NCBI GenBank assembly: GCA_918797485.1
Contig: CAKKNE010000005.1
Span: 124,001 to 188,000 of the forward strand
Direction: 5' to 3'
Origin: Pelagomonas calceolata
Taxonomy: Eukaryota; Sar; Pelagophyceae; Pelagomonadales; Pelagomonadaceae
DNA: 64,000 nucleotides
The position numbers were made by a program, and so were the translations under genes. The number at the start of each line of letters is the position of its first letter. Within the stretch, counting starts at the first letter, position 1. Below are positions 11,378 through 63,066 of this stretch, in pieces. Under the pieces are notes generated by a model that worked only from the letters and a program-made list of their open reading frames with translations, was not told where the DNA came from and did not search any database.

Positions 11378-14300
11378 ATGGACGTCCCGGACACGCCCAC
11401 GGCCGCCGAGGTGCCGCTCAAGGACACGCCCACGGAAGTCGACGACGACGCCGCCTCGGATGCCAGTAGAGAGAGCTGGCCCGATGTGACGGCTTTGGCC
11501 GCCCTCCCGGGCACCGCGTTTAGTGGAGAGGTCCACGCGCGGCGCGATAACGCGCGCCTGGGCTGGCGCCGCTGCTCTGCGATTGTGACGCGGGGCGACG
11601 GCGCCGCGGAGGCCTGTTTGCAGCTGACGGAAAAGACGACATTGGTGAGAGAGCTCCAGCTGAGCAATCTGTCCATCTCAATCGCGGAGAAGACCGGCGC
11701 CCTGGCGACGACGCCGCTCCAGGCCGCTCCCGGCGGGCGGCCCGCGTTTCGCATCCGCGTCGAGGCGACGCCACCGCTAGATCTGGGCTTTTGCGGTCCC
11801 GCGGCGGCGGCGGCGTCTACCCGTGATAAGTGGCTCGCGGAGCTCGTGCTGGCGGGCTGTATAGCGCCTCCTCCTGTAGCGTGCGGCGCCCTCGCTATTA
11901 AACTGCGCGAGGGCGACACCGATCGAGCCGAGGCGCTGGCGGCCGTCGGCCGGGCGCTGATGACAGCGCGGCGCGTGCCCTTCCACGAGGACATGGTGAC
12001 CCTCGCGCGCGGGCGGCGGCCCGCGCTCGTCTGGCTCCGGGAGGGCGCTCAAGCCGCGGCTCGAGCCTGCGCGGCCGACGATTCAAGGGTGGCGCGCGCG
12101 GCCTTTGGAGCCGCGGCGCACGTCGTCGACTTGATAGAGGAGGAGGTCGCGGCGGACTGCGCCGTCGCGCTCTGCGGCGGCGCGCGGCGCGCGAGCCGCC
12201 GCGACGACGGCGCCGCCGCGCGCGATGCGTGCGTCGCGCTCGAGGCAATTATATCGTCTCCAACATCGGTCGGCCGCGCCGCGCTGCTGCGCCTGGCGCG
12301 CGCGCCGCGCGCTTTGTTTGCCCTCGCTGGTTTATTAAACGAGGAACGTCCCCCTACACCGGTCTGCAACATTCTGGCAGCAACGCTCCACCGGAGGCGA
12401 AGTCTCGCACAACGAGGCGACGCAGCCTTCGCGCGCCTTTGTTGGACGCGCGTCACCCGGTTGCTGGAGGCGGGCGCCGAGGGCGCCGCGGCTTTGTGTG
12501 TTGCGTTAACACGGGCGTCGCGCAAGAAGGCGCGGACGGCGCTCGTCGACGACGCGTCGTTGGCGCCGGCGCTTGCGAAGGCGCTCCAAGGACAGGGGGA
12601 TCACGTCCTGGCGGTCGTAGCACTTATCGGAGACGATGCGGCGCTGAGCGAGCCGCCGCTTTCATTAGAGACGGAAGGCGGTGGCGACGACGCGTCGTCC
12701 GACGACGACGCAGAACGAGCGGCGTGGTCGTCCGACGAGGGCGACACGCCTCCTCAAGTAGAGGGAGAGGCGTACGCTGTTGTGTTTGAAGGAGGAGGAG
12801 CGAGGGGACTGGGTCTAGAATTGGCGGCGGGGCCCTGGTCTGACGGTGGTGTGGCGCCGTCCGTGCACCGCGCCAATAGTTTTACGCGGCGCCAAGGTGT
12901 TGAGAGAGGCGATTTGCTGGTCGAGGTGAACGGTAGAAGGGTCGAGTACTCAATAGAGAAGGACGCATCTTCTCAAATAGTGAGGGAGGCCATGGTCGCG
13001 GCGTGTGCGGCCGTCAGAGATGCGCCGTGGCCGAAGCGGTTGGTGTTTCTGAGGAGACGGGCGGTCGAAGCACCTTATAAGCGAGTATCAGCATCAGCTT
13101 CCGAGGCGAGACGTACATTGACGGAGGCCGGGGTCGGTGAAGCATGTGTGCGAAGATTGGAAGAAGAACAATCTAGGTTGAGTTGCGACGCGTGCGCGGC
13201 TTTAGCGAGGGAGCTGTCTCCTGATTTACGGGAGAGAGCTGTGTCAGTGGCGGCGCAGATGGACCATTTAGCAGCTGCTAGGCTGGTCGCGGCCTGCCTT
13301 CCGCATGATGCTGACCATGATGACGACGCCGGCGTGGCTGGCGCGTTCCCGACGGACGACGAGCACTTTTTTTGGGGCGATGTTATACAGAGAAGGAACG
13401 CATCTTCCCTCAATGTTATGTTAGAAGAAGGACCGTTGGGATGCGTCGTGGAGGTGCACCGGTGCGATCAGGGGGTGAGGTGCTGCCGCGTCGCCTCGGT
13501 CAAAGAGGGGTCCCGCGCGGCACATGCGGGCGTGCTGGTGAATGATGTTGTGGAGGCCGCGAACGGCTACGCCCCGCCTTTTGAGAGTGACGAGGAGGAT
13601 GCCCTATCGACCTTCTTCGCGGGCCTGGGCTTTCCGCTCCGGCTGTCGTTGCGGCGCCGTTCCGAGAATTGCGACGAAGCTCCTCCAAAAAGGGAAGAAG
13701 AAGGCGACGCTCTGGAACTACCAGAACCCTTCCTCAAGAAATGTATAGCGGAGCTCCTCTATACCAGTGAAGGCGCCGCCGTCGCGTGTAAAATTATTGA
13801 AAGGGCAGAACCGCGAGAAATCATCTACCAGAGGTGCATGGACGTGCGCACGGCGACGGCCCACGCCGTCGCCGTCGAGCCGGGCCGCGTCCAGTCATTA
13901 GCTTCGTGGACGCCCGACGACGAGGACCCCACGGTCTCGCGGGACGAGGCGGCGTCGCGCGTCCCGCTCGCCGACGCCGAGGAATCAGAAGACATACCTC
14001 TCGTGCGGGACGCGCCGCGCGTCCTCTCCGCGTCGACCCAGCCGTCGTACGTCGACGGCGGTACTATGATAGATGAGGAGGAATCTGTGGTTGTCCCGGG
14101 GTCGGCCTTGTCTCGATTGCTCGAGCTGGCGACGGGCGACGACCTGGCGTTCGGTGCCGGCGAGGCCGCGGCGCGGCGAGACACCGAGGACCAGTTCGTG
14201 CGTATTGCTGCGCTGCGGGCGCTTGCGGCCTTGTGCCGCGGGAACGCCCGCATTGCAGAGGCCACGGTCGTCGAGGGGTCCCTGCCGCGCGTCGTCGCGT

Positions 14301-17300
14301 TGGTGGGCGGCGCGCGGGGCGGCGCCGTCGCGGCGGCGGCGTGCGGGTGCCTGGCCGCGGTCGCGGGAGCGTATCACGAGTGGAGCCCGTCGGGAGCCTG
14401 CGCGTCCTTAAAATGGCTCCTGCGGCCCGTCGCGCCGCGGACGCGGAAGCGGAGGGTTATTGAAGATGCGGCGCCGGGCGCCGTGGGCCCGCCGCCCATG
14501 TCTTCGTCTCAGTCACTCGTCGGCGCGTGGTCCGTCGACGCGCGGCGCTGCAAGGAGGCGGCCCTCGCATTACTACACGTCGTCGCGCGCCGGTCGGAAA
14601 CCGACGCGCACGACGCGCACCTCTCGGGCGCGCTGGACGCGGCCTGCGGAACATTTCTGGGCACGGAACATACTGAGAACGTGTTGTTGATGTGCGCAAG
14701 CGTCTCTACGAACTTGATCGGCCCGGAGTGCCTCGCTAGCATCGCCTCCGTTCTCGACCCGAATCTCCCGGGAGGCAGCGCCTGGGGGGACCGCGAGGTC
14801 GCGCGCCTGGGGGGCGACGTGCTCAAGCTCGTCGCGTCGGGCGGGGGGGCGGCGCGCCTCGCGGCGGCGCCCGGCGCCGTCGCGGCACTCGTGCGCCACG
14901 CATCCGTGCACCCGGCCTGGGATTCGATCCGCGCCGTCGCGGAGTTGGCGGAGGCGGAGCCGCTCGCCGTGGCGGCGACGGGCAGCCTGCTGGGGGCCGC
15001 GATCGCCGCGGCCTTTGAGCTGAACGCGGCCGACGACGCGCTGCTGGCCTTCGAGCGGTGCCGCGCCGCTTCTGGCCCTCGGGCGGCCGACGAGGTCGTG
15101 GAGGCGGCCGCGGCCGCGGCGGAAGGCGCGCCGGCGGCGCTCGCCCGGCGCTGCGCTTCTGGCGACGACGCCGCGTACATCCTGGCGAGGGCGGCGCCGG
15201 CCGGCCGGCGGCGCGACGTTCTGGACCGCCTGCGCAGAGGACCCGCGCGCGCTGGCCCCGCTCGTCATGGGTGACCGGACGTCGGCGTGCGTCGCGCGCG
15301 CGTCGCGGGCCATCGTCGCCGGCCTAGAAAAGGACGCGTTCGCCGAGGCGTGCCGCGCCTTTCCGTTCGAGGCCGTCGCCGCCGCGGCGCGGGCGCTCGC
15401 GGAGGCGGCCGGCCCCGACGCCGTCGCGGCGCTCGCGGCGCTGGACGCGCGCGGTTTGCTCACGGATCTGGGCCCCGTACTCGCGCGGTCGCGGTGCCGC
15501 GCGCTCACGTCATCAGACGAATCGACGCGGGCGGCGGGCGTCCGCGCGTGCGGCGACGACGTGATCGCGCGGGCCGCGGCCACGGCGGCGGGGGCCTGCC
15601 ACGCCGAAGCGCTGGACCGGGCCGCGGCGCACGCGCAGCGACCGAGCGTCTCCAAGGAGGCGGCGGCCCTCTGCGCGCTCGAAGCCATCTTGACCTTCGG
15701 TACAAGTGCGCGCCGGACCGTTACGACGGACGTGGACGCCGCTCTAGAAGCGCGCCTCGGCGACGAGAGTGACGCGGCGCTCGGGTGCTTTGCGCTGCTG
15801 GCGGCCGGCGACGCGGCGCGGGCGCGCGTTTATTCAAGGGCGGCGGTCGTGGACGAAGTTGTGAGGCGGTTGGAGGACGACCGGTCGCTGGCGGCGGCGC
15901 GGTGCGCGGCGGCGCTGGCGTTCTGCGCGGCGCCGGGCGACGCGCTCGGCCCCGCCGTCGCGGCGGCGCTCGTCGCCGTCACGCTGCCCGCGAGCCCGCC
16001 GCTGGTCCAGGACGACGTCTCCGTCTCCTTAGACGAGCTGCCGCCGCACCTGGCGCAGGTCATCGGCAAGAAGGTGGTCATTCCCATGCAGCAGGGTGGC
16101 GGCTACGGCGTCGTCGCGTGCATCCAGGACGGCATCTGCGAGGTGGCGGTCCAAGGGAGCGACCCGGAGGAGTTCGTCACGTCGTACATCGACGAGCTCG
16201 TCATGGCCGACGGCACGAAGTTGTACGTGCCGCCGGCCGCGGAATCCGGCGCGTCCAGCGAGTCCGAGGCCGCGGCCGAGGCCGCCGATCCGCCCGCCGC
16301 CGAAGCGCGCGAGTCGAGCGACGACGAGGCGCCGCCGCCTCCAGCCGAGGAGGCGGGCGAGCTGGACGAAGATAGCATCGGCGTCTCACGCACCCCGCGA
16401 GGGCGGCCTACCGCATGGCCGCGCGCGGCGCGCTCGTCGCGTCGCCGGAGTTGGTCCGTCGGCTCGCGCGCCTCGTGCGCCTCTACAAGGACGAGGCGCA
16501 TTGCGTCGGTGAGGGGGCCGCGGCGCGCGCGCTCGCCCAGGTCGTCGACGCCCAGACGATCAGCGACGAGGGCTTGCTGGGCACGATCCTGGACGAGGCC
16601 GTCCTGCCGCACCTGGCGCGGCCCTGCGCGGCCGTCGTGCTCGCCGCGCTCGCGCGCGCGGCCGTCGCAAGCGACAACAGGGCGGCGCTGCGCCCGGCGC
16701 TCGCGGGGCGCCTCATTCCACTGGAGGATGCCGCGCCGACGTGCGACCCCATCCGCGTCCTGCTGGAGACCGCCTCCACCATCGGCTTTCGCCCGGGCTA
16801 CTTCGACGCGCCCCCGGAGGCGCCGGCGGCGCCCCAGCGAGCGGCGCTGTTGACGTGGCTGCACGAGCACGTGTCGGACGAGGCGCGGCGGGTGTTCGTG
16901 CTGCGGGCGTGCGACGGCCTCGACGACCTGGCGGCGACACCCGACGCGGAGGACGTCCTGTCGCTGGACACGTGGCCGGCGCTGGCGGCGCTTCCTACGG
17001 GCGCTCGCGGCGCTGCGGGGCGAGGCGCCGGCGGACGAGGAGGACGAGGCGGAGCCGCCGGAAGTGGAGCTCGAAGTGGACTCGGACGCGGAGGAGGAGG
17101 CCGGCGACGCGGAGGAGGAGGAGGACGACGAGGAGGACGACGAGGAAGAGGACGAGGCCCTCGCGGCGGCGCTGGCCGCGTCGCGGCGGTCGCTCGCGGA
17201 GGAGGACCAGCGGCGCTTGCGGGCGGTCGCCGCGGCGTCGCTGGGCGCCGTCGAGGCGACGCCCGTGCCCGACGGCGTGCCCGACGGCTACGACGCGGCG

Positions 17301-19013
17301 GCGGCCGTCGAGGCGCTCTCCGTGGGACCGCTGCCCGAGCTGCCGCGGTCGTCGTCGCTCCAGCGCGTCGCCGCGTCGGACGCGCTCGACGAGGCGTCGG
17401 GTCCCGCCGCGCCGCGGTCCCGGAGGACGAGCCTACGTCCGCCGATGCCGCGCGACGCCAATTGGAGGCTGATGCTGCCGATGCACTGGCGGGTCTGGAG
17501 GCTGAGGCGAATCCCACAGAAACGCCCGCGCCCGAAGCAACGGCGCCCGAGCCACCGACGCCCGAGCCCGCGCCCGAGCCAGAGCCGGCGGCCGAGCCCG
17601 CGCCGGCGCCGGCGCCTCCCGTGGAGCTGACCGAGGCGGCCCTCGAGGCCGCGCTGCAGCGCCGCCGCGCGGCCCGCGCGGCCGCGGCGCGCGCCGCCGC
17701 CGCCCGCCGCGCCGGCGCCGGCCAGCGGCCCGGCGCCGGCGCCGCAGGCGCCGTCGCCCGCGCCGTCGAGCCGCCGGAGCACGCTCGACTCCGAGTTCGG
17801 CGAGGACCTGCAGGCGGAGCTGCGCCAGCTCGAGCTCGAGATGGCCGGCGGCGGGGCCACCGAGGCGCCGCCCGCGGCCGCGCCCGCGCCGCCCGCGCCG
17901 CCAGAGCCAGTACCTACGCCGCCGCCGGAGCCAGCACCTACGCCACCGCCGCAAGCGCCACCGCCGCCGGCCTCCGCGCCGCCGCCCGCGGAATCGACGC
18001 CGCCACTACCGGCCGCGCCGGAGCCCGAGGAGTCAGAGCCGGAGTACGCGTCCGACGCGTCGAGCGAGTTCTCCCAGGAGCCGCTGCCGGCGGCCACGGC
18101 CCCGCCCGCCTACGACGAGGCCGCGCTGCCGCCGCCGCCGGCGTACTTTACGCTGGCGCCGCCGCCGCAGTCGCCCGCGGCCGAGGCGGACGAAGCCGCG
18201 CCCAACCCCTTCGAAGGCGACTCCGACTCGAGCTCCGAGTGGTCGCAGGAGCCGCTCCCAGTCGATGAGGCGGCGACCGTGGAGGAGCCCGCGTTACCGC
18301 CGCCGCCGGCCTACTTCGCGCTGGCGGCGCCGCAGCCGGCGCCCGCGCCACCCAGCTACTCTGCGCTCGCCCCGCCGCTGGAGCCCGTCGCCGAGGCGCC
18401 CGAGGAGCCGCGGGAAGAAGAGGACGACGCCGCGTACGAGTCCGAGGCCTCGTCGGTCTGGAGCCAGGAGCCCGGCGGCCCGGACCACGCCGTCGAGGAG
18501 CCCGCGTTACCGCCGCCGCCGGCCTGGGACTCGCTCATGCGGCCCCCCGAGCATGTGCCGTCGCGACCGAACCCCGAGTCGGAGCGCGAGCGGGCGCCGC
18601 CGGCGCCACCAAACTACTCGTCGCTGCCGGTCTCGCCCGCGCCGCCCGCAACGCCAGTGCCACCCGCCGCGCCGCCCGTGCCGCCCGTGCCGCCGCTGCC
18701 ACAACTGGCGCCGAACCCGTTCGACGACGCGCCGGAGGAGGAGGACGCCGACCTGGCGCGGGCGCTGGCCGCGTCGCGCGCCGACATGAGCGCCGACATG
18801 TCGCGCGACGAGGCGCTCGCGCGCGCCCTGGCGCAGGACGACGCTCCGCCTCCGGCTGCGCCGGAGGACGCGGCCCTGGCCCAGCAGCTGGCCGACGAGG
18901 CCCTCGCGCGCCAGCTCGCGGATCAATTCGCGGCCGAGGAGGCGGCGTCGAGCCCAGCGCCGGCGTCGCCGGCGCCGCGCGCGCGGAAGAAGAATGCGAT
19001 TCGGTTGTTTTAA
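11378..19013 (+). CDS. Giant scaffold: ARM-like repeats, two PDZ-like domains, UIM and NPF motifs
   Basis: Read as one gene of about 2,540 residues whose frame alternates near 15230, 16390, 17005, 17420 and 17720, with no introns that explain the switches. Order: a PH-like N-terminus; Ala/Leu-rich ARM/HEAT-like helices; a first PDZ-like domain (VERGDLLVEVNGRRV); a second (AHAGVLVNDVVEAANGY); more ARM-like helices (IAALRALAALCRGNARIAEA); a small KOW/Tudor-like segment (QQGGGYGVVACIQDGICEV); a Glu-rich stretch with a ubiquitin-interacting motif (EEDEALAAALAASRRS); a C-terminus with three repeats of S-S-x-x-S-Q-E-P plus PPPPAYF; two NPF motifs (PNPFEGD, PNPFDDA); and more UIM-like helices (EEEDADLARALAASRA). 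UIMs bind ubiquitin and NPF binds EH domains in endocytic adaptors, so an endocytic or ubiquitin-sorting scaffold is inferred. It could be two genes. Confidence 0.65.
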
Positions 19014-19664
19014 GAAGATCTTTGTGTGCCTCTTCTTTGACTATCGTCAAGCTGTTACGGCGCGTAACCTCGCGCGAGGACGTAGCCAATATTTTTTGCA
19101 GCGCATCGCGTGGAGTTCTCCCATGTTCATCCCAGGGCAGTCTCCGGTTCACGACCACACCTTTCCAACTCGCTTCCTTGCTCGCAAGCGTGCACAAACC
19201 TGACAATATCGTCAACTCCTAGCGCGCACGGCCGAGTCCCCTCGCCTTTCCCTCGCCTCCGCGCCGCGACCGACCACTGTCCGCGCGAATCTGCGGCCGC
19301 GCGCCGCGCCCCGAGGCCCAAAATAGGTGTTGCACTATTGATCAAAGGAATGCCCGCGGCGCGGCGGCGCCTTGGGCGCCAAAGGCGGCCCCCGGAGCCC
19401 CGCGCGGCCCTGGAAGCGAAACCGGGCCTGGAATCCTTGAGATCGTCGCGCGCCGCCGCGCGCGCGGGCGCCGGGCGGCGCGGCCTGGCGGCCCGCGCGC
19501 CGGCAAGACCCCGGCCGCCAGCCGGCCCGCGCGACGGCCGCGCCCGCGCCCGCGACCCGCGCTCGGGCCCGTTCCGGCCGCGCGCCCGCGCGCACGCGCG
19601 AGACGCCGCCTCGGCCGCCGCGCGCGCCCCGGAAGTCGTCCACCCCGGATCCGCCTCGCAGGCC
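19014..19664. other. Very GC-rich intergenic region
   Basis: About 650 bp. The last 300 bp are almost pure G+C with many CGCG and GGCGCC words, like a CpG-dense promoter. Long frames on both strands here are Arg/Ala/Pro-rich and look like composition effects. No motif or RNA gene is seen. Confidence 0.4.
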
Positions 19665-20000
19665 ATGGCCGACGAAGAAGCCCCCATCCTCAACAAGCCC
19701 GCGCCGGCCAAGTCCTCGTCCGCCTGGCGCCTCGCGGTCGTCGTCGCCGCCGTTCTCGGCCTCGTCGCGGGCTACGTCGTGCGGGGCGCGGTCATGAACG
19801 AGACGACTCCCCTCGAGTTACGCTCGGGTGGCCACCCGGCTAGCGGCTCCGGCTCCGGCTCCGGCGAAGAGGTTATGTATTTCTTCGCTTCTGGTGCTGA
19901 TCCCAAGTATTCGGCTCACGGCCACGGCCATAAGGTTGACACTGAGCCGGAGGACGGAACTGAATATACTTTCGGTCATCATTTCGCTGCGGATCAGTGA
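19665..20000 (+). CDS. Small single-span membrane protein
   Basis: 111 residues from ATG 19665 (MADEEAPILNKPAP). It has a short acidic N-terminus, one membrane span (WRLAVVVAAVLGLVAGYVV, about 24-42), an (SG) repeat (GSGSGSGEE), a His/Gly patch (SAHGHGHK) and an end reading TFGHHFAADQ. The stop overlaps a GTGAGG, so a further exon cannot be excluded. The long in-frame extension upstream (from 19110) is Arg/Ala-rich and rejected as non-coding. Function unknown. Confidence 0.55.
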   Translation: MADEEAPILNKPAPAKSSSAWRLAVVVAAVLGLVAGYVVRGAVMNETTPLELRSGGHPASGSGSGSGEEVMYFFASGADPKYSAHGHGHKVDTEPEDGTEYTFGHHFAADQ

Positions 20001-24416: not shown

Positions 24417-25106
24417 CTACGTTACCTTCGGCGCGCAGCTCCCGCGCCCGACGCCCGCCCAGTCCGCCGCCCGATACATGTTGAAGCCCGGCGGGAGCGC
24501 CTCGCTTGCAGAAGGCGCGCCCGCGAGCCACTCGTCCACAATCTCGGCATAAACGTCGTCGCGGCCGTCGTTCACGGTACCCTCGACGAAGTAGCAGCCC
24601 ACCAGATCCACTTTTGCTGGAGAGAACTTGCGGTAGTACTTTAGTTTTTTGTAGATGGGTTTAGGTAACCGTCCCAGTTTCTCCCTAAATAAAGTCTCGA
24701 CGTTGTAGCCTCGTAAAGTAGGTGTATCATCATGAGGTATCTTCCACACGTCCTCCAGCGCATAACGGACCCACACCAAGCCCCACCAGATCGCTCTTGG
24801 TATTTTTTGCTCCGTTTCGCCGGGCCACCGCGTCCCGCGCGAACCGTAGTCATAGATGCGGCACTCGGCGCCCGTCGCCAAATGAAACAATAAGTTGTGG
24901 TCCAGGTCCTGCAGGACGCCATAAAAATCGTTCGCTTCACATCTGGATGATTGGATTCTACAGATGTTCGTGGCGTGGTCCAGCACGGGCAGCGCCTCGA
25001 TGCCATTGGTGAGGTTGATGAAATTGAGGCGTCGTTTCGCCGGCGGCGCGAGGGGCGCTACGCTCGTGGCGAGCAGTGCGACTGCGATGATGCGGCGGCG
25101 GCGCAT
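24417..25106 (-). CDS. Conserved-looking plastid protein of unknown function
   Basis: 229 residues from ATG 25106 (MRRRRIIAVALLATS). The hydrophobic leader followed by VAPLAPPAKRR looks like a heterokont bipartite plastid leader. The mature part begins NFINLTNGIEALP and carries well-formed globular sequence (DFYGVLQDLDHNLLFHLATG, WWGLVWVRYALEDVW, GCYFVEGTV). It resembles uncharacterised algal and plant chloroplast proteins with the block F-x-N-L-T-N-G-I-E-A-L, but no activity is known to me. A longer in-frame extension to 25253 is rejected as it precedes the leader. Confidence 0.68.
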   Translation of the reverse strand: MRRRRIIAVALLATSVAPLAPPAKRRLNFINLTNGIEALPVLDHATNICRIQSSRCEANDFYGVLQDLDHNLLFHLATGAECRIYDYGSRGTRWPGETEQKIPRAIWWGLVWVRYALEDVWKIPHDDTPTLRGYNVETLFREKLGRLPKPIYKKLKYYRKFSPAKVDLVGCYFVEGTVNDGRDDVYAEIVDEWLAGAPSASEALPPGFNMYRAADWAGVGRGSCAPKVT

Positions 25107-25270
25107 GGCTGTGATTGAGCTGCGGAGTGCAGCACTGCTCAGTGTGCGAGGGCTGTCACTGCAGCAACCTAGCGCAGCGTGTCGCAGCAAGACAGTGGCT
25201 CTCCTGGACTGTAAAAGAGATGGCAAACGGCCGAATTTGGCGCGTTCTCGCATCGGGGCCGTAGCACCGA

Positions 25271-25294
25271 GCTAGCGGGTTGTAAGACACTAGC
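25271..25294. promoter_or_regulatory. CTAG-hairpin promoter motif, copy 6 (consensus copy)
   Basis: GCTAGCGGGT followed by TGTAAGACACTAGC, perfect arms. It is 164 bp from the plastid-protein start and 240 bp from the YnfA-family start. Its right flank is similar to that of the 21624 copy. Confidence 0.7.
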
Positions 25295-25534
25295 AGCAGC
25301 GTTTTTGCAAGTCTGAGGCTGGCTGGCTGATTGCCACCGTCACTGCAGCTTATCAAGGACTTGGATTTGATCATTGGACGTCGCGTTCTGGCCTAGACGC
25401 AAGCCTTTCGCGCGAGACAACACCATCTACCCCACGCGCTCTGCACGCTCTCCCAGCCGCACGCCTGCATGAGCCTCCTGCGCTTTCACACCTCATCCCT
25501 AAGCGACACCACTGTCGCCGCGCCCGCGAAAAAG

Positions 25535-25949
25535 ATGGATCCGGCAACAAAATACGTTTTGATCGTCGCCCTCTTCCTCGCGGCCGGCGTCCTCGAAATC
25601 GGCGCCCGCCCGCGCGGAAATCAAAATCCACGACGCCATCGACGCGACTGATGGATTTGCAGGTGGCGGTTGGATGTGGTGGCAGGCCCTGCGGGAGGGC
25701 AAGCCGTGGTGGTACGCGGTCATCGGGAGCGCGATGCTCTGCCTCTACGGCGTCGTGCCGACGTTCCAGCCGCAGACGGCCGGCACGGAGGACTTCGGAC
25801 GCGTCTACGCGGCCTACGGCTGCTGGTTCATTTTGCTGTCGCTGGCCTGGGGCTGGGCCGTCGACGGCAACCGGCCCGACGCCGGCGACGGCATCGGGGC
25901 AGGGTTAGCAGCTGTCGGCGCGGTCGTCATCACGTTCTATCCACGCTAG
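25535..25949 (+). CDS. YnfA/UPF0060-family small membrane protein
   Basis: 117 residues once the exons 25535-25601 and 25663-25949 are joined. Four membrane spans are expected. Family landmarks: [21 protein letters not shown] spread over the junction, YGVVPTF, and the highly typical GRVYAAYG followed by a W-rich span and VDG-x-RPDAGD. The family is common in bacteria (about 108 residues) and is sometimes linked to small-multidrug-resistance-like transporters; its function is not established. The intron uses GC instead of GT as donor (GCGCCCGCC...TTTGCAG) and holds an introner-like core CGACGCCATCGACGCGAC. Presence in an algal nuclear genome suggests old bacterial transfer. Confidence 0.82.
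25602..25662 (+). other. GC-AG introner-like intron in the YnfA-family gene
   Basis: 61 nt. No GT occurs in the stretch, so a GC donor is needed to join LEIG to GGWMWW. The end CTGATGGATTTGCAG resembles CTGGTTGATTTCCACAG of the introns at 33355 and 33591. Confidence 0.7.
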
Positions 25950-25983
25950 TAACTACAAGAAACCATATTATGAGCTAGCCAAA

Positions 25984-26033
25984 GCAGCAGTCGGGCCCCA
26001 CACCCTTAAGTGAGAGACCGTCACGGGAGCCGC
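25984..26033 (-). promoter_or_regulatory. Candidate SECIS element
   Basis: Begins at the last base of the stop codon of the FrnE-like gene. On the minus strand it folds as: GCGGC paired with GCTGC; internal loop; TGAC opposite CGAC (the non-canonical TGA/GA core); GG paired with CC; TCTCTCAC paired with GTGTGGGG (one mismatch, G-T pairs allowed); apical loop TTAAGG containing AA. The TGA to AA distance is 13 nt, as expected for eukaryotic SECIS. Drawn by eye, not computed. Confidence 0.5.
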
Positions 26034-27028
26034 TAGGGCCATTTTGATGAGTCCATGCCCGACGGCTCGACGACGCGGAAGTTCGTGCCCGTCGCGAGGA
26101 GCTCCGCTAAAACGGCGCCGACGACGGCGTAGGGCTGCGCGCCCTCCAGGGGAAATTTTTCGTCGAGCACGACGACGGGCGACGCAACTACCCCTCTTGT
26201 AAGACATTCGCCCAATCGTAACGCGACGTCCGACCCTCCGCGAGGGGACACGAGGAAGCGCGCCATGTCGTCGTCCCTTTCACTTTTAGCTAAACCAGCC
26301 GCGAAGGCGCAGTCGTTGAGCACGGCAAGATCAGATAACGGCTGGCCCTTGGCGTGGCAGGCCTCGAGGAGCGCTTCCAGCACGTCCAACGACTTACCTG
26401 ACTTCTCGGCGAACCAGAGTAGCCGTTGGGCGTCGAAGGGGTTGCCCACTTTCCCGTCCCGCGTCAACGTCAAGCCTTCCTCGGCGTAGACCTCCTGCAG
26501 CCGAGCCCAGACATCATCCCCTTTCGTGCCGTGCGCTCTGGAAATTTCGTCGTAGGCCGCCCTCCGGTCGTGAGCGTCCTCTCCTCGTTTGAAGTGCATA
26601 TACGCCTGCATCGGGAAGATTGATACGTCGAATCGGTCCGCGGCGCCCATGGCGGCGATGGCCTTCCGGAGGCGCTTCAAACAGGGCCAGGTCCAGAGTC
26701 AGTTCGGGTCGCACAATAATTCAATGGAGTACTTGGCCTTGAGGGGCGCGAGCTCGGGCGCGACGGCGGGCGTCGGGGCGTCGCGCACCGTCGGCAGCTC
26801 CCTCGGCGGTGCTGCCGGCTCGGTCGGGGCCCGGCGCCCTTTGCTGGCGCTTCTTGGCCTGGGGACCACCTTGCTGGCGCTGCTCGGCGCCTCGGGGAGC
26901 TTGCGGACCACCTTCGGCAACGAGGGGTGCCGCCGTTCGTTGCCGATGGTGAGCTTCGCCAGGGGGTCGTCGTCGTCGTCGTCGAAGGCGGCCCACTTGG
27001 CGTAGTCCGTGCCGCCGCGGCGGGCCAT
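26033..27028 (-). CDS. FrnE/DsbA-like thioredoxin-fold oxidoreductase, candidate selenoprotein
   Basis: 331 residues if the in-frame TGA at 26699-26701 is read as selenocysteine (residue 110). The first 95 residues are a disordered leader (acidic DDDDDDP, then Pro-rich). The domain follows: KYSIELLCDPN-U-LWTWPC, aligning without gaps to the FrnE block D-x-x-CPWC-x-x-x-K/R-R, so U takes the first active-site Cys and Thr the second (U-x-W-T). Downstream family blocks are intact: GNPFDAQRLLWFAEKSG, FAAGLAKSE, SPVVVLDEKFPLEGAQP. Such proteins are DsbA-fold disulfide oxidoreductases or isomerases. The frame is the same on both sides of the TGA, no intron could remove it, and a SECIS-like hairpin follows the stop. 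A sequencing error or a real nonsense mutation is the alternative. Confidence 0.78.
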
Positions 27029-27186
27029 TCTGTGTTACTGTCCTATTGTGCTCTTTTTTGAGCTGCCCTGGGGCGACGCGTCGATGGCGTGCCCCTGACT
27101 GTGCGTGGGCTGCCCTACGCCAGTCCTCGCGGGAATAGGGCAACCATTTGGCCCCCAACCAGGCCAACGCCGGAACAAGACGATTC

Positions 27187-27209
27187 GCTAGTATCTTAAT
27201 GCCGCTAGC
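27187..27209. promoter_or_regulatory. CTAG-hairpin promoter motif, copy 7
   Basis: Minus-strand reading GCTAGCGGCATTAAGATACTAGC, perfect arms. It is 158 bp from the FrnE-like start and 199 bp from the TLDc start. Confidence 0.65.
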
Positions 27210-27408
27210 TAACACTGCGAAAAAAGCGTAGCGGTCCGACCGCGGCAACCACGGGCCGCTGAGACGCATTGGTCGCTGCAGAGGAGCCCACTGCTCTGCT
27301 TGAGCGCACGGTGTGTCAAACCGGCAGTCCCGAGGCGCCACCGAGCTACAGAGAGCAGAGGCCCTGACAACTCATCGAAGCCGCGGGACGCCGCGCCACA
27401 AGGAAAAC

Positions 27409-28269
27409 ATGGACGCGACGACGCAGCAGCCGACGGACTCGTCGCCGCCGCCGCCCCCACCTCCGAAAAAGTCCTCGCACCCTTCATTGTCCGACCTAGC
27501 TTCATCAATAGCGTCGAAGCTGTCGCTTTCCTCCTCGAAGCCGCCGCCGCCGCCGCCGCCGCGGCCCCCACGAAGCCCGCCCATGAAGCGGCCGCCCGAA
27601 TCGCCTGTAGCTAGACTCCTGGCAAAGTCCCACATCCTCGACGACGCACTCGCGGCGGCCCTATCGAACAAGCTCCCGGACACGCTGAAAGGCTACAACC
27701 TCAAACTACTGTACAGTCTCCAGCAGCACGGCGCGGACCCCGGGACCTTCTACGCCCGATGTCAATTCGACCACCGGACACTCATAGCGATACAAACGAC
27801 GCGAGGCGAAGTGTTTGGCGGCTACATGACCATGCCCTGGCGGCCGTCGGAAGAGTATTACGGGACTGGGCAGTCATTCTTGTGGCGAAAAACGAACAAA
27901 TGCGACATCAAGAGGCCTGGATCTCTCTTGAGAGGCTTCTCGTCGTCCCCGCGCCAGAAACGTATCACGAATGTGGAAGTGTACGGCTGGACGGGCAATA
28001 ATTCCTACTTCGCGCTCTGCTCCGATAGAAGTGTCGCGATGGGCGGCGGCGGGTCGTTCGGGTTTCTGGTGGAGGAGGATTTTTCAAGAGGCACGTCGGG
28101 CACGTCGGAAACATACAACAACCCGCAACTCTCGTCAGCACCGGATTTCGAGGTCGTGAACTTCGAGTGCTGGGGGTTTACGACGTGTGCGACCGTCGAG
28201 GAGTTGTCGCGGGAGTCGCCTCTGCGCGCTCGGCCCGTCGTCAAGGCCCAGGCGCAGCTGCGGCGGTGA
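27409..28269 (+). CDS. TLDc-domain protein (OXR1/NCOA7/TBC1D24 family)
   Basis: 286 residues from ATG 27409 (MDATTQQPTD). A Pro-rich, disordered N-terminus with poly-Pro runs is followed by a full TLDc domain (about 85-280): LYSLQQHGADPGTFYARC, TRGEVFGGYMTMPW, YGTGQSFLW, YGWTGNNSYFALCSDRSVAMGGGGSFGF, and the end FEVVNFECWGF. TLDc proteins protect against oxidative stress and several bind and regulate the vacuolar H+-ATPase. The poly-Pro region could bind WW or SH3-like partners. The neighbour across the shared promoter is the redox selenoprotein candidate, which fits a common stress role (inference). Confidence 0.9.
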   Translation: MDATTQQPTDSSPPPPPPPKKSSHPSLSDLASSIASKLSLSSSKPPPPPPPRPPRSPPMKRPPESPVARLLAKSHILDDALAAALSNKLPDTLKGYNLKLLYSLQQHGADPGTFYARCQFDHRTLIAIQTTRGEVFGGYMTMPWRPSEEYYGTGQSFLWRKTNKCDIKRPGSLLRGFSSSPRQKRITNVEVYGWTGNNSYFALCSDRSVAMGGGGSFGFLVEEDFSRGTSGTSETYNNPQLSSAPDFEVVNFECWGFTTCATVEELSRESPLRARPVVKAQAQLRR

Positions 28270-48876: not shown

Positions 48877-50202
48877 ATGGGCGGTCTCCGCAGCCTCTGG
48901 TGGCGAAGAGCGGCCGAGCACCACAACGCCCAGCAGACGCGCATGTGGGCCGAGTACCAGTCGCGGGGCTATGGGGAACAACAGACGACGGTCCGGCCGC
49001 GCCGGCGCCCGCGCACGGAGCCCCAGGACCCGGTGTTGTTCGGCGTGCTCATGGCCCTTGCGATCGGCGTCGCGTGTGTCCTGACGCTCGAGCCCACGAC
49101 CTGCCCCTACGGCGCGAAACAGCTCCTCGCGGCGCGCGAGCCCTGGCAGACGGCGAATAGTACGACGCCGCCGCGCTGGGCCGACCTCAACGCGACGATC
49201 CAGAACGGCTTCACGCGCTGCGGGAAGTACGCGAACGACACGGATTTATTTGTGGACGATTCCAATGAAGGCGCGGGCACGACTTATGGCTACGCCCGTG
49301 AAGACGTGGAGGCGTTGGTAGAGAGGGCCCAAGCCGTCGTGGAAAAGCGACAATACGGCTCGCGCCCGAACGACGCGCACTTCCTCGAGGCGCTCGTGGG
49401 CCACGTGGCCAACGGGTCGTCGGTGCTGGTCGTCGGCAGCGCTGAGCCCTGGCACGAGGCCGTGTGCCTCGCTCTGGGCGCTTCAAGAGTGACGACCGTC
49501 GACTACGGTTCAAGAAAATACGAGCACCCGCAACTGGACCAGGTCAATGCGAGCTTCTGGAATCAACTAGACGACGCGAATCTAGGATACGACGTCGTTG
49601 TCTCCGCTTCATCGCTGGATCATGATGGACTGGGCCGCTACGGCGACCCCATCGCGCCGGACGGCGACCTCCTGACGATGCGGTTATTACTAAGAGCGCT
49701 CGCGCCAGGAGCTAAAGTTATCCTGAGCGTGCCGGTGGGGCCCGACAGGATTATTTGGAACCTGATGCGCATATATGGAAAAGACCGCCTCGCGCGATTG
49801 ACAGACGGCTACGACGTCGTCGAAAGAATAGGCTACGACTCCACGAAACTAGACGAAGCGCCCGAGAACGTGCTACGGACGTACGAGCCGGTGTTTGTAT
49901 TAAGCGTGCCTGACCAGATTTGCCTGGAGGATGCGTTCTGGTGCAACTTTCAAAAAAGGACGGTCTTCGGCCAATCCGTCGTCACGGTGGTGACGGTGGT
50001 GGTGGTGGCGCTCATGGTCCTGTCCGTCGCGCGGGATTTGCGGGCGGGCAAGTACCTCGCGGCGGGGGCGACGCTCGTCATGAGCGCCATTGCTGCGGTC
50101 TATGGGCCGGTCGCGCTCTTCTGTCTGCCCGTGCATATCTACATCCACCGACCGGAGCGGCCGAAGGTCGTCGACTTCGGCCGCGCGCCGCGACTCGGGT
50201 GA
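48877..50202 (+). CDS. DUF268 membrane protein with methyltransferase-like fold
   Basis: 441 residues from ATG 48877 (MGGLRSLWWRRAAEHHN). Order: basic N-terminus, one membrane span (VLFGVLMALAIGVACVLTL), lumenal part with potential N-glycosylation sites (NSTT, NATI), then the DUF268 domain: VLVVGSAEPWHEAVCLALGA, VTTVDYGSRKYEHP, VVVSASSLDHDGLGRYGDP, GDLLTMRLLLRALAPGAKVIL, VPVGPDRIIWNLMRIYG, RLARLTDGYDVVE. Two further spans are at the C-terminus. The domain looks like a Rossmann-type methyltransferase; members occur in nematodes, algae and bacteria near glycan genes. A Golgi/ER glycan-modifying role is inferred. Confidence 0.85.
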   Translation: MGGLRSLWWRRAAEHHNAQQTRMWAEYQSRGYGEQQTTVRPRRRPRTEPQDPVLFGVLMALAIGVACVLTLEPTTCPYGAKQLLAAREPWQTANSTTPPRWADLNATIQNGFTRCGKYANDTDLFVDDSNEGAGTTYGYAREDVEALVERAQAVVEKRQYGSRPNDAHFLEALVGHVANGSSVLVVGSAEPWHEAVCLALGASRVTTVDYGSRKYEHPQLDQVNASFWNQLDDANLGYDVVVSASSLDHDGLGRYGDPIAPDGDLLTMRLLLRALAPGAKVILSVPVGPDRIIWNLMRIYGKDRLARLTDGYDVVERIGYDSTKLDEAPENVLRTYEPVFVLSVPDQICLEDAFWCNFQKRTVFGQSVVTVVTVVVVALMVLSVARDLRAGKYLAAGATLVMSAIAAVYGPVALFCLPVHIYIHRPERPKVVDFGRAPRLG

Positions 50203-50256
50203 CGCGCGCCGCGCCGCAGCGACCATCGCAAGAAGCGACGAAGGAGACGCTATGAC

Positions 50257-50291
50257 GCCCGGCGACGCCTACTGGGTAGGCGTCGCCCGGC
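50257..50291. terminator. Strong hairpin between convergent genes
   Basis: CCCGGCGACGCCTAC-TGG-GTAGGCGTCGCCCGG, a 15-bp stem with one mismatch and a 3-base loop. It lies between the stop of the DUF268 gene and the stop of the facing LRR gene. Confidence 0.5.
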
Positions 50292-50334
50292 CGAGGAAAC
50301 CCGCACTCCGCCTCCGTTGTCGTAAACACTTGTA

Positions 50335-61899: not shown

Positions 61900-63066
61900 T
61901 CACGATAGCCCCGGATCGAGGGACGCCGCCGGCCGCGGCTCGGGCGGCGGCGCGGGCGGCGTCAGTAAGGCAGCGAGGCCTTTTGGCGCCGGCTTCGCAG
62001 AGGCCGCGGCCATCTCTATCCTAGCTTCTGCCCTTGCCGCTTTGCGCTCCAGACGCGCGCGCAGGCGCGCGACCGCCGGTAGAAACGACCGCGCCGCGGT
62101 GTACATCCCAGAATTCCGATCGGCCACGTCCGCCACGATCGTCTCGGACAGCGCCAAGGCGGTCGCGGTCACGCCGACGAGCACGGCGCCGCCGGCTGCT
62201 CCTCTATCTAGAGCACAAACGACCGCAACAGTTGCCGCACAGAACGCTCCCAGAGTCCGCAGCACGACCCAGTGGCCCGAGGGGAAGCGCGGCCCCGCGC
62301 CCGCCGCCCGTCGTTGCGCTCGGTATTCATGCAGTCTTTCCAAGTCCGCGCGAGCGCCCAGAGGCGTCGGCGGACACCGAGCGTCAGCCAGAGCCGCGGC
62401 GCAGTCCGCCAGCGGGTCGACGAAGCGCTGCTTCTCATTTGACTTCGGACGACGCCCGCGCCGCTGCGTGTCGTCTATGGACGCCTCTAGTCGTCGACAG
62501 TGCGCGGCCGCCGCCGCCAATGCTCTTTGAAAGTAGACTTCCGTCTCCGGCGCATCTAAATCGTTGAGGCCGCCTTCCAATAGTTCGGCGGCGGCGAGTT
62601 CCGCCCCGACCGCATGTAATTGGGTTTCTTGCCGCGTCATCGCGGCTCCTAAAGTCGACCCCAGTAGAACGGAGTATAAAACACCCAACACAGCCAAGGC
62701 GGCCTGCAGCGGCTCGGAACTTACATTTAGTTCCTCCGTGAGCTTGTGGGCGTACTTCGAGATGGCGTCGGCCGTGACTAGGTATAGAGAGCCGCAAACA
62801 ACGCCCAAAATGACGCACCACGCTAAAACGTTCACGACCGCACCGGCCGCCGGTTGACCGCCATCTAACTCCTCCAATTCGTTTTCAGTGCGTAATAAGG
62901 CTTCGCTCCGATCGAAAAAGTCTCCATGTCGCGCGCTGTCGCTGTTCGACGCTCCGCCGAGCTTCCGTATGACGTTCGAGGCGCCGCGCATGGCCGTCAC
63001 GCCGCCTCTTGGTAAGTCCAGGGCTGCTGCGACGCCCATCATCCAGAGGTACATGCTGCGTCGCAT
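61900..63066 (-). CDS. DUF4239 (bestrophin-like) membrane protein
   Basis: 388 residues from ATG 63066 (MRRSMYLWMMGVAAALDLP). The N-terminus is a signal-like segment; then spans NVLAWCVILGVVCGSLYL and LQAALAVLGVLYSVLLGSTLGAAM, the DUF4239 hallmark block (TRQETQLHAVGAELAAAELLEG), a middle helical loop with Cys/His, and spans VVLRTLGAFCAATVAVVCA and GGAVLVGVTATALAL. The tail is basic (RARLERKAARAEARI). The family is bestrophin-like and suspected to form ion channels. The leader may target the plastid (inference). Confidence 0.75.
   Translation of the reverse strand: MRRSMYLWMMGVAAALDLPRGGVTAMRGASNVIRKLGGASNSDSARHGDFFDRSEALLRTENELEELDGGQPAAGAVVNVLAWCVILGVVCGSLYLVTADAISKYAHKLTEELNVSSEPLQAALAVLGVLYSVLLGSTLGAAMTRQETQLHAVGAELAAAELLEGGLNDLDAPETEVYFQRALAAAAAHCRRLEASIDDTQRRGRRPKSNEKQRFVDPLADCAAALADARCPPTPLGARADLERLHEYRAQRRAAGAGPRFPSGHWVVLRTLGAFCAATVAVVCALDRGAAGGAVLVGVTATALALSETIVADVADRNSGMYTAARSFLPAVARLRARLERKAARAEARIEMAAASAKPAPKGLAALLTPPAPPPEPRPAASLDPGLS

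Follow-up and report, generated by a model that had tools for sequence, protein, structure and literature searches.

We have analysed a stretch of 64,000 nucleotides from the genome of Pelagomonas calceolata (contig CAKKNE010000005.1, positions 124,001 to 188,000), referred to here as the window, whose minus strand carries a candidate selenoprotein gene of the DsbA superfamily. The minus-strand frame 27034..26033 is open apart from one TGA. The coding region (26033..27028) begins with an ATG at 27028, ends with a TAG at 26035–26033 and gives 331 residues in a single frame, with the TGA at codon 110 (26699..26701) as its only interruption. An earlier interpretation made from the DNA letters alone (the sequence-only reading) had placed both sides of the TGA in the same frame and in one FrnE-type domain, and the analysis agrees with it on both points. 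All features of the gene given below lie on the minus strand.

Domain, fold and active site

The Pfam match to the DSBA-like thioredoxin domain PF01323 covers residues 102–301 (26126..26725) and spans the TGA, with an E-value of 2.3e-9 and 37.8 bits against a curated cut-off of 25.6. In phmmer searches of the PDB, SCO1869 (3gl5) aligned to residues 102–326 and FrnE of Deinococcus radiodurans (5cnw/5cp1) to residues 93–306, both with no gap around the TGA. In the AlphaFold model, the first strand of the DsbA fold (beta-1, residues 100–106, 26711..26731) is encoded 5′ of the TGA, and residues 101–110 have a mean predicted local distance difference test score (pLDDT) of 97. The preceding N-terminal extension of ~95 residues (26744..27028) is of low complexity and predicted to be disordered; its mean pLDDT is 33–55 in blocks of residues 1–90, and a Pfam search of the protein gives no match in that part.

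The protein is predicted to adopt the fold of Deinococcus FrnE, the closest among the families listed by VIA-align. Compared with the FrnE proteins DR_0659 of D. radiodurans (5cnw) and SCO1869, the window protein is 20–24% identical over the aligned part, carries the disordered extension, and has selenocysteine (Sec) in place of the first active-site Cys and Thr in place of the second. It also lacks the C-terminal CXXXXC, having no Cys C-terminal of residue 275; this motif is described as common to many FrnE members and absent from some (PMC8945050). Because the CXXC active site that defines FrnE is replaced by U-L-W-T, we refer to the product as a FrnE-fold selenoprotein of the DsbA superfamily rather than as FrnE.

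The active site, U-L-W-T (26690..26701, canonically C-P-W-C), was compared with relatives in an alignment (A6) of the window protein and 64 homologues, picked from 132 proteins returned by searches, mainly by leaving out truncated relatives. Five of the rows form a close clade with the window protein, and 54 of the 59 rows outside it have a residue at the catalytic column. At codon 110 this residue is Cys in 52 and Trp in the other two (P0025 and P0026); three positions further on, where the window protein has Thr113, all 54 have Cys. The TGA thus falls without a gap on the first Cys of the CPWC motif, and the second Cys is replaced by Thr, both as the sequence-only reading had it; the pairing of Sec with Cys in homologues, for which it had proposed a check at this column, is also seen. 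The cis-Pro position, Pro284 (26177..26179), holds Pro in all 64 homologues. On these sequences, the U-x-x-T form belongs to a clade on a long branch whose members come only from P. calceolata and close environmental relatives; the viral contigs searched contained no relative. The two Trp rows are relatives of the type of a second DSBA gene of the genome (locus L001, see below) and read AWPWC at the Sec column, perhaps because a gene caller translated a TGA as Trp.

The gene models of the closest relatives start at, or lie in, the part of the gene beyond the TGA. Nine of them (P0001–P0007, P0009 and P0010) have a modelled start downstream of it, and a frame-shifted tenth (P0008) is also entirely downstream; the models contain no in-frame Sec codon and the catalytic residue is therefore missing from them. 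P0011, from another contig, is the sole model that crosses the TGA, reading gene nucleotides 315–362 in the +1 frame (MRPELTLDLALFE against VRPELTLDLALFE in the window). Back-translation of its residues E-L-T leaves only TAA, TCA, TGA or TTA (T-N-A) for the Sec codon, so that a second source rules out TGC and TGT.

The SECIS element and the selenocysteine machinery

A selenocysteine insertion sequence (SECIS) element was located at about 25983..26034. Its stem 1, of six pairs, overlaps the stop codon, and the core, TGAC ... CCGAC, has its TGA beginning nine bases after the stop; the helix has ~10 pairs with one mismatch and the apical loop carries AA. Among the 83 candidates that the canonical apical-AA rule gives on the two strands of the window, it scores highest (29.5, with 25.0 for the next), and this score was reached by none of 2000 dinucleotide shuffles, none of 1167 window blocks and none of the ends of 72 other open reading frames (ORFs). 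A covariance model built from three other selenoprotein genes of the genome (L008, L013 and L003) also ranked it first in the 64-kb window (match at 26024–25990, E 0.0012); the next-best match, with an E-value of 0.043, lies inside the coding region of the Sec gene itself. Earlier covariance alignments, of nine and then six control elements, had paired bases out of register and were dropped in favour of the three-sequence model. The weight of the SECIS evidence lies in this joint result: the AA rule and an independent model both put the element first, and it is on the correct strand with its core near the stop.

Nine SECIS loci of the same genome (L001–L003 and L008–L013) served as controls. 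In each, a strong hairpin whose core is TGA/GA lies 25–223 nt after the domain match and scores 32.5–42.5; in eight of them the core is TGAC with a C before the 3′ GA. The apical loop is CC in six of the nine and neither CC nor AA in the other three; that of the window gene is AA.

The genome searched (32,445,274 bases in 8 contigs; for strain RCC100, 32.4 Mb and six nuclear contigs in addition to the plastid and the mitochondrion are described, PMC9481584) contains the machinery for Sec insertion. Two copies of tRNA-Sec exceed the gathering score, SepSecS scores 375.7 bits and SelD 282.8 bits. The best solved match of eEFSec, which falls below the SelB cut-off, is 5izk, ‘Selenocysteine-specific elongation factor’, at 422 bits. 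In-frame TGA codons were found in four of five GPX loci and two of three Rdx loci. A search for DSBA gave six matches, corresponding to at least four distinct genes and a copy of the window gene on contig 1, on the assumption that the two matches on contig 6 are exons of a single gene. All four distinct genes have TGA at the first active-site position, in the motifs U-P-W-C (C4, L001), U-P-F-C (C6, L003/L006), U-P-N-G (C2, L002) and U-L-W-T (window). Like the window gene, the three paralogues have PF01323, a SECIS and a TGA in this column; C4 and C6 keep the resolving Cys, whilst C2 has Gly and the window gene Thr. In the tree, neither C4 nor C2 falls together with the window gene; C6, a gene in more than one exon, was left out of it.

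Several observations weigh against reading the gene as a selenoprotein. Without the AA rule, the SECIS scores 28.5, below a hairpin 400 nt downstream (33.0) and below all nine controls, so that its helix is the weaker one. The AA rule behind the null tests is followed by none of the control SECISes, none of which scores above 18.0 in a strict AA scan. Under a bare TGAC–helix–CGA rule, scanned over 251,886 strand-bases of the window and loci, the element scores 21; five other places in the window score 21–37 and one place each in L002, L007 and L015/L016 (two overlapping loci) also reaches 21. The covariance model recovers three of the six controls on which it was not trained (L011, L002 and L010) and misses L001, L009 and L012, and is therefore not complete. 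Taken as a whole, the 96-nt 3′ flank has ordinary fold stability (z −0.57), and an Rfam search of the window found no SECIS; since Rfam found one in none of the nine control loci either, GPX and Rdx included, this last negative is uninformative and is not counted. As to the gene itself, P0011 is an error-prone, frame-shifted model whose frame changes again further on, and the region upstream of the TGA can be viewed in no other relative. The contig 1 copy, identical to the window over 24626–28000, shows no divergence and adds no evolutionary information; a duplication of 393 kb between the ends of contigs 1 and 5 has been reported (PMC9481584). Thus, the SECIS-like fold that the sequence-only reading had seen after the stop exceeds chance by the AA rule and is the top covariance match, but it is not unique by looser rules, and the 3′ fold had been overstated in so far as the flank is not unusually stable.

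Other SECIS-like hairpins were seen. On the plus strand of the window, in the region 48877–50300, a DUF268 gene (PF03269) ends in a TGA at 50200 and is followed, near 50253, by a 14-pair hairpin with a TGAC...CCGAG core; a scan upstream in the frame of this gene shows no further in-frame TGA. In L007, in minus orientation near 2519, a TGAC...CGAC hairpin with a score of 33 follows, at a distance of ~800 nt, an Rdx match without an internal TGA. In addition, ARAGORN called a tRNA with a CTA anticodon, labelled Pyl, at 62164–62247 (minus), which is absent from the Rfam list at the gathering score. The G+C content of the window is 0.73–0.77 over 14001–20000 and 0.58–0.68 in the other 2-kb blocks.

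Proposed mechanism and alternative readings

The domain, the structure, the Sec/Cys column, the SECIS, the Sec machinery, the Sec paralogues and the second contig that excludes Cys all agree, and because of them we read the gene, as the sequence-only reading had proposed, as coding for a selenoprotein with Sec in a U-L-W-T site. We infer with great confidence that Sec is inserted at UGA110, and consider it very likely that the product is a selenoprotein of the DsbA superfamily with the FrnE fold. UGA110 would be decoded by the Sec machinery of the alga, directed by the SECIS that starts at the stop codon, and the product would consist of a disordered N-terminal tail and the DsbA-superfamily domain. 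Its catalytic residue would be the lone selenol of U-L-W-T, at the N-terminal end of helix 1 and facing the cis-Pro loop. In thioredoxin-fold chemistry, the first Cys attacks and the second Cys resolves. As the resolving Cys is here Thr, the protein is most likely a mono-selenol oxidoreductase. The Sec may attack a disulfide, a glutathionylated thiol or a peroxide, and we infer that the resulting selenenyl intermediate would be resolved by glutathione or another outside thiol. This is the simplest reading for a Sec without a resolving Cys and, given Sec, is slightly favoured; DsbA is reported to be able to act without its second Cys (PMC2874816).

The alternative that survives best keeps the selenoprotein but has the intermediate resolved internally by a distal Cys (106, 116, 224, 240 or 275). 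Candidates for this role are Cys224 (26359–26357), Cys240 (26311–26309) and Cys275 (26204..26206, nine residues N-terminal of the cis-Pro), which are invariant in the six-member clade (alignment A1). The columns of Cys240 and Cys275 each have Cys in only 5 of the 64 other rows of A6, namely the five clade rows. The column of Cys224, however, has Cys in 24 of 64 rows, and because 19 of these lie outside the clade it is not clade-specific. We regard internal resolution as less likely than resolution by an outside thiol.

The other alternatives dispense with Sec. If the TGA were a real stop, a short upstream peptide might or might not be made, and a truncated DsbA-like protein would start at Met127, as in the models of relatives, of which ten lie beyond the TGA and P0011 crosses it only out of frame. 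A protein with this start would be without beta-1, the active site and the greater part of helix 1. Gene callers moreover treat the sister Sec gene L001 alike: its TGA is at codon 22, and all 12 of its nearest relatives (P0013–P0024) match only from residue 47 onward. A real stop would also leave unexplained the SECIS and the exact match between the TGA and the catalytic column, and we consider it very improbable.

Still less probable is a short intron that excises the TGA. The sequence-only reading had stated that no intron can remove the codon, and this does not hold as put: within 300 nt on either side there are 268 in-frame GT/GC–AG combinations that skip it, the shortest GT–AG being of 90 nt. 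The 60 shortest introns, which are those listed, would nevertheless remove beta-1 and/or the active-site turn with the N-terminal end of helix 1, parts that are kept in relatives. An intron would leave the SECIS unexplained, and the genes of P. calceolata are reported to average only 0.45 intron each (PMC9481584). An assembly error or a recent mutation of TGC or TGT is scarcely credible since, even if the only second copy in the same genome is identical and sits in a recent duplication, P0011 from another contig rules out both codons and three paralogues carry the same TGA.

Relation to known selenoproteins and significance

Sec is already known in this family. Sec-FrnE has been reported in Mamiellophyceae and Mesostigma (PMC6627142) and Sec-DsbA in Ciona, Branchiostoma and Micromonas (PMC2874816), and DsbA is counted with the algal selenoproteins of widest distribution (PMC7539508); the window protein has Sec in the FrnE/DsbA family in common with them. 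In the chordate Sec-DsbA, as in the window gene, it is the upstream Cys that gave way to Sec and a SECIS was identified, but the motif described is U(or C)XXC rather than U-x-x-T (PMC2874816). A bacterial DsbA-like selenoprotein, COG2761, is known from the Sargasso Sea (PMC1088965). The bacterial Sec-DsbA proteins (PF01323/COG2761) have Sec at the same column as the window protein, but use the bacterial SECIS system, and in 60 of the 70 loci retrieved with P0012 the motif is U-P-W-C, with the resolving Cys kept. Going by titles or tree labels, these U-P-W-C FrnE-like loci (L021–L079 and L089) come from Pseudomonadota, SAR324 and Acidobacteriota.

The closest published parallel that we found for a lost second Cys is DsbA 3 with UxxV, from the Global Ocean Sampling (GOS) data (PMC2398784). 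Published lists give UxxT for GPX-like, OsmC-like and Grx-like proteins, and only UxxC and DxxUP for DsbA-like ones (PMC13188914; PMC9312934). No report of U-x-x-T in DsbA/FrnE was found in the literature searched, subscription papers and supplements being outside its scope. What appears to be new is the U-x-x-T active site in the FrnE/DsbA family, and the suggestion that a Sec-FrnE with U-x-W-T might be undescribed has to be narrowed to this motif; the presence of Sec, known from green algae, chordates and bacteria, does not share in the novelty.

We propose, tentatively and at somewhat less than even probability, that the protein represents a pelagophyte-specific subfamily of the FrnE fold in which the catalytic Cys first became Sec and the resolving Cys was then lost, giving a mono-selenol enzyme (a glutathione-coupled reductase, an isomerase or a peroxidase). 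If true, this would mean that the second Cys was lost twice independently in the genome (U-L-W-T and U-P-N-G) after the family had become fully Sec-dependent. Pelagomonas is an alga that abounds in the open ocean, and ‘seleno’ occurs nowhere in the main text of the paper on its genome (PMC9481584). As the DSBA genes found are all Sec-based, with U-x-x-C, U-x-x-G and U-x-x-T side by side, the genome offers a direct test bed for the question of whether Sec frees a thioredoxin-fold enzyme from the need for a resolving Cys.
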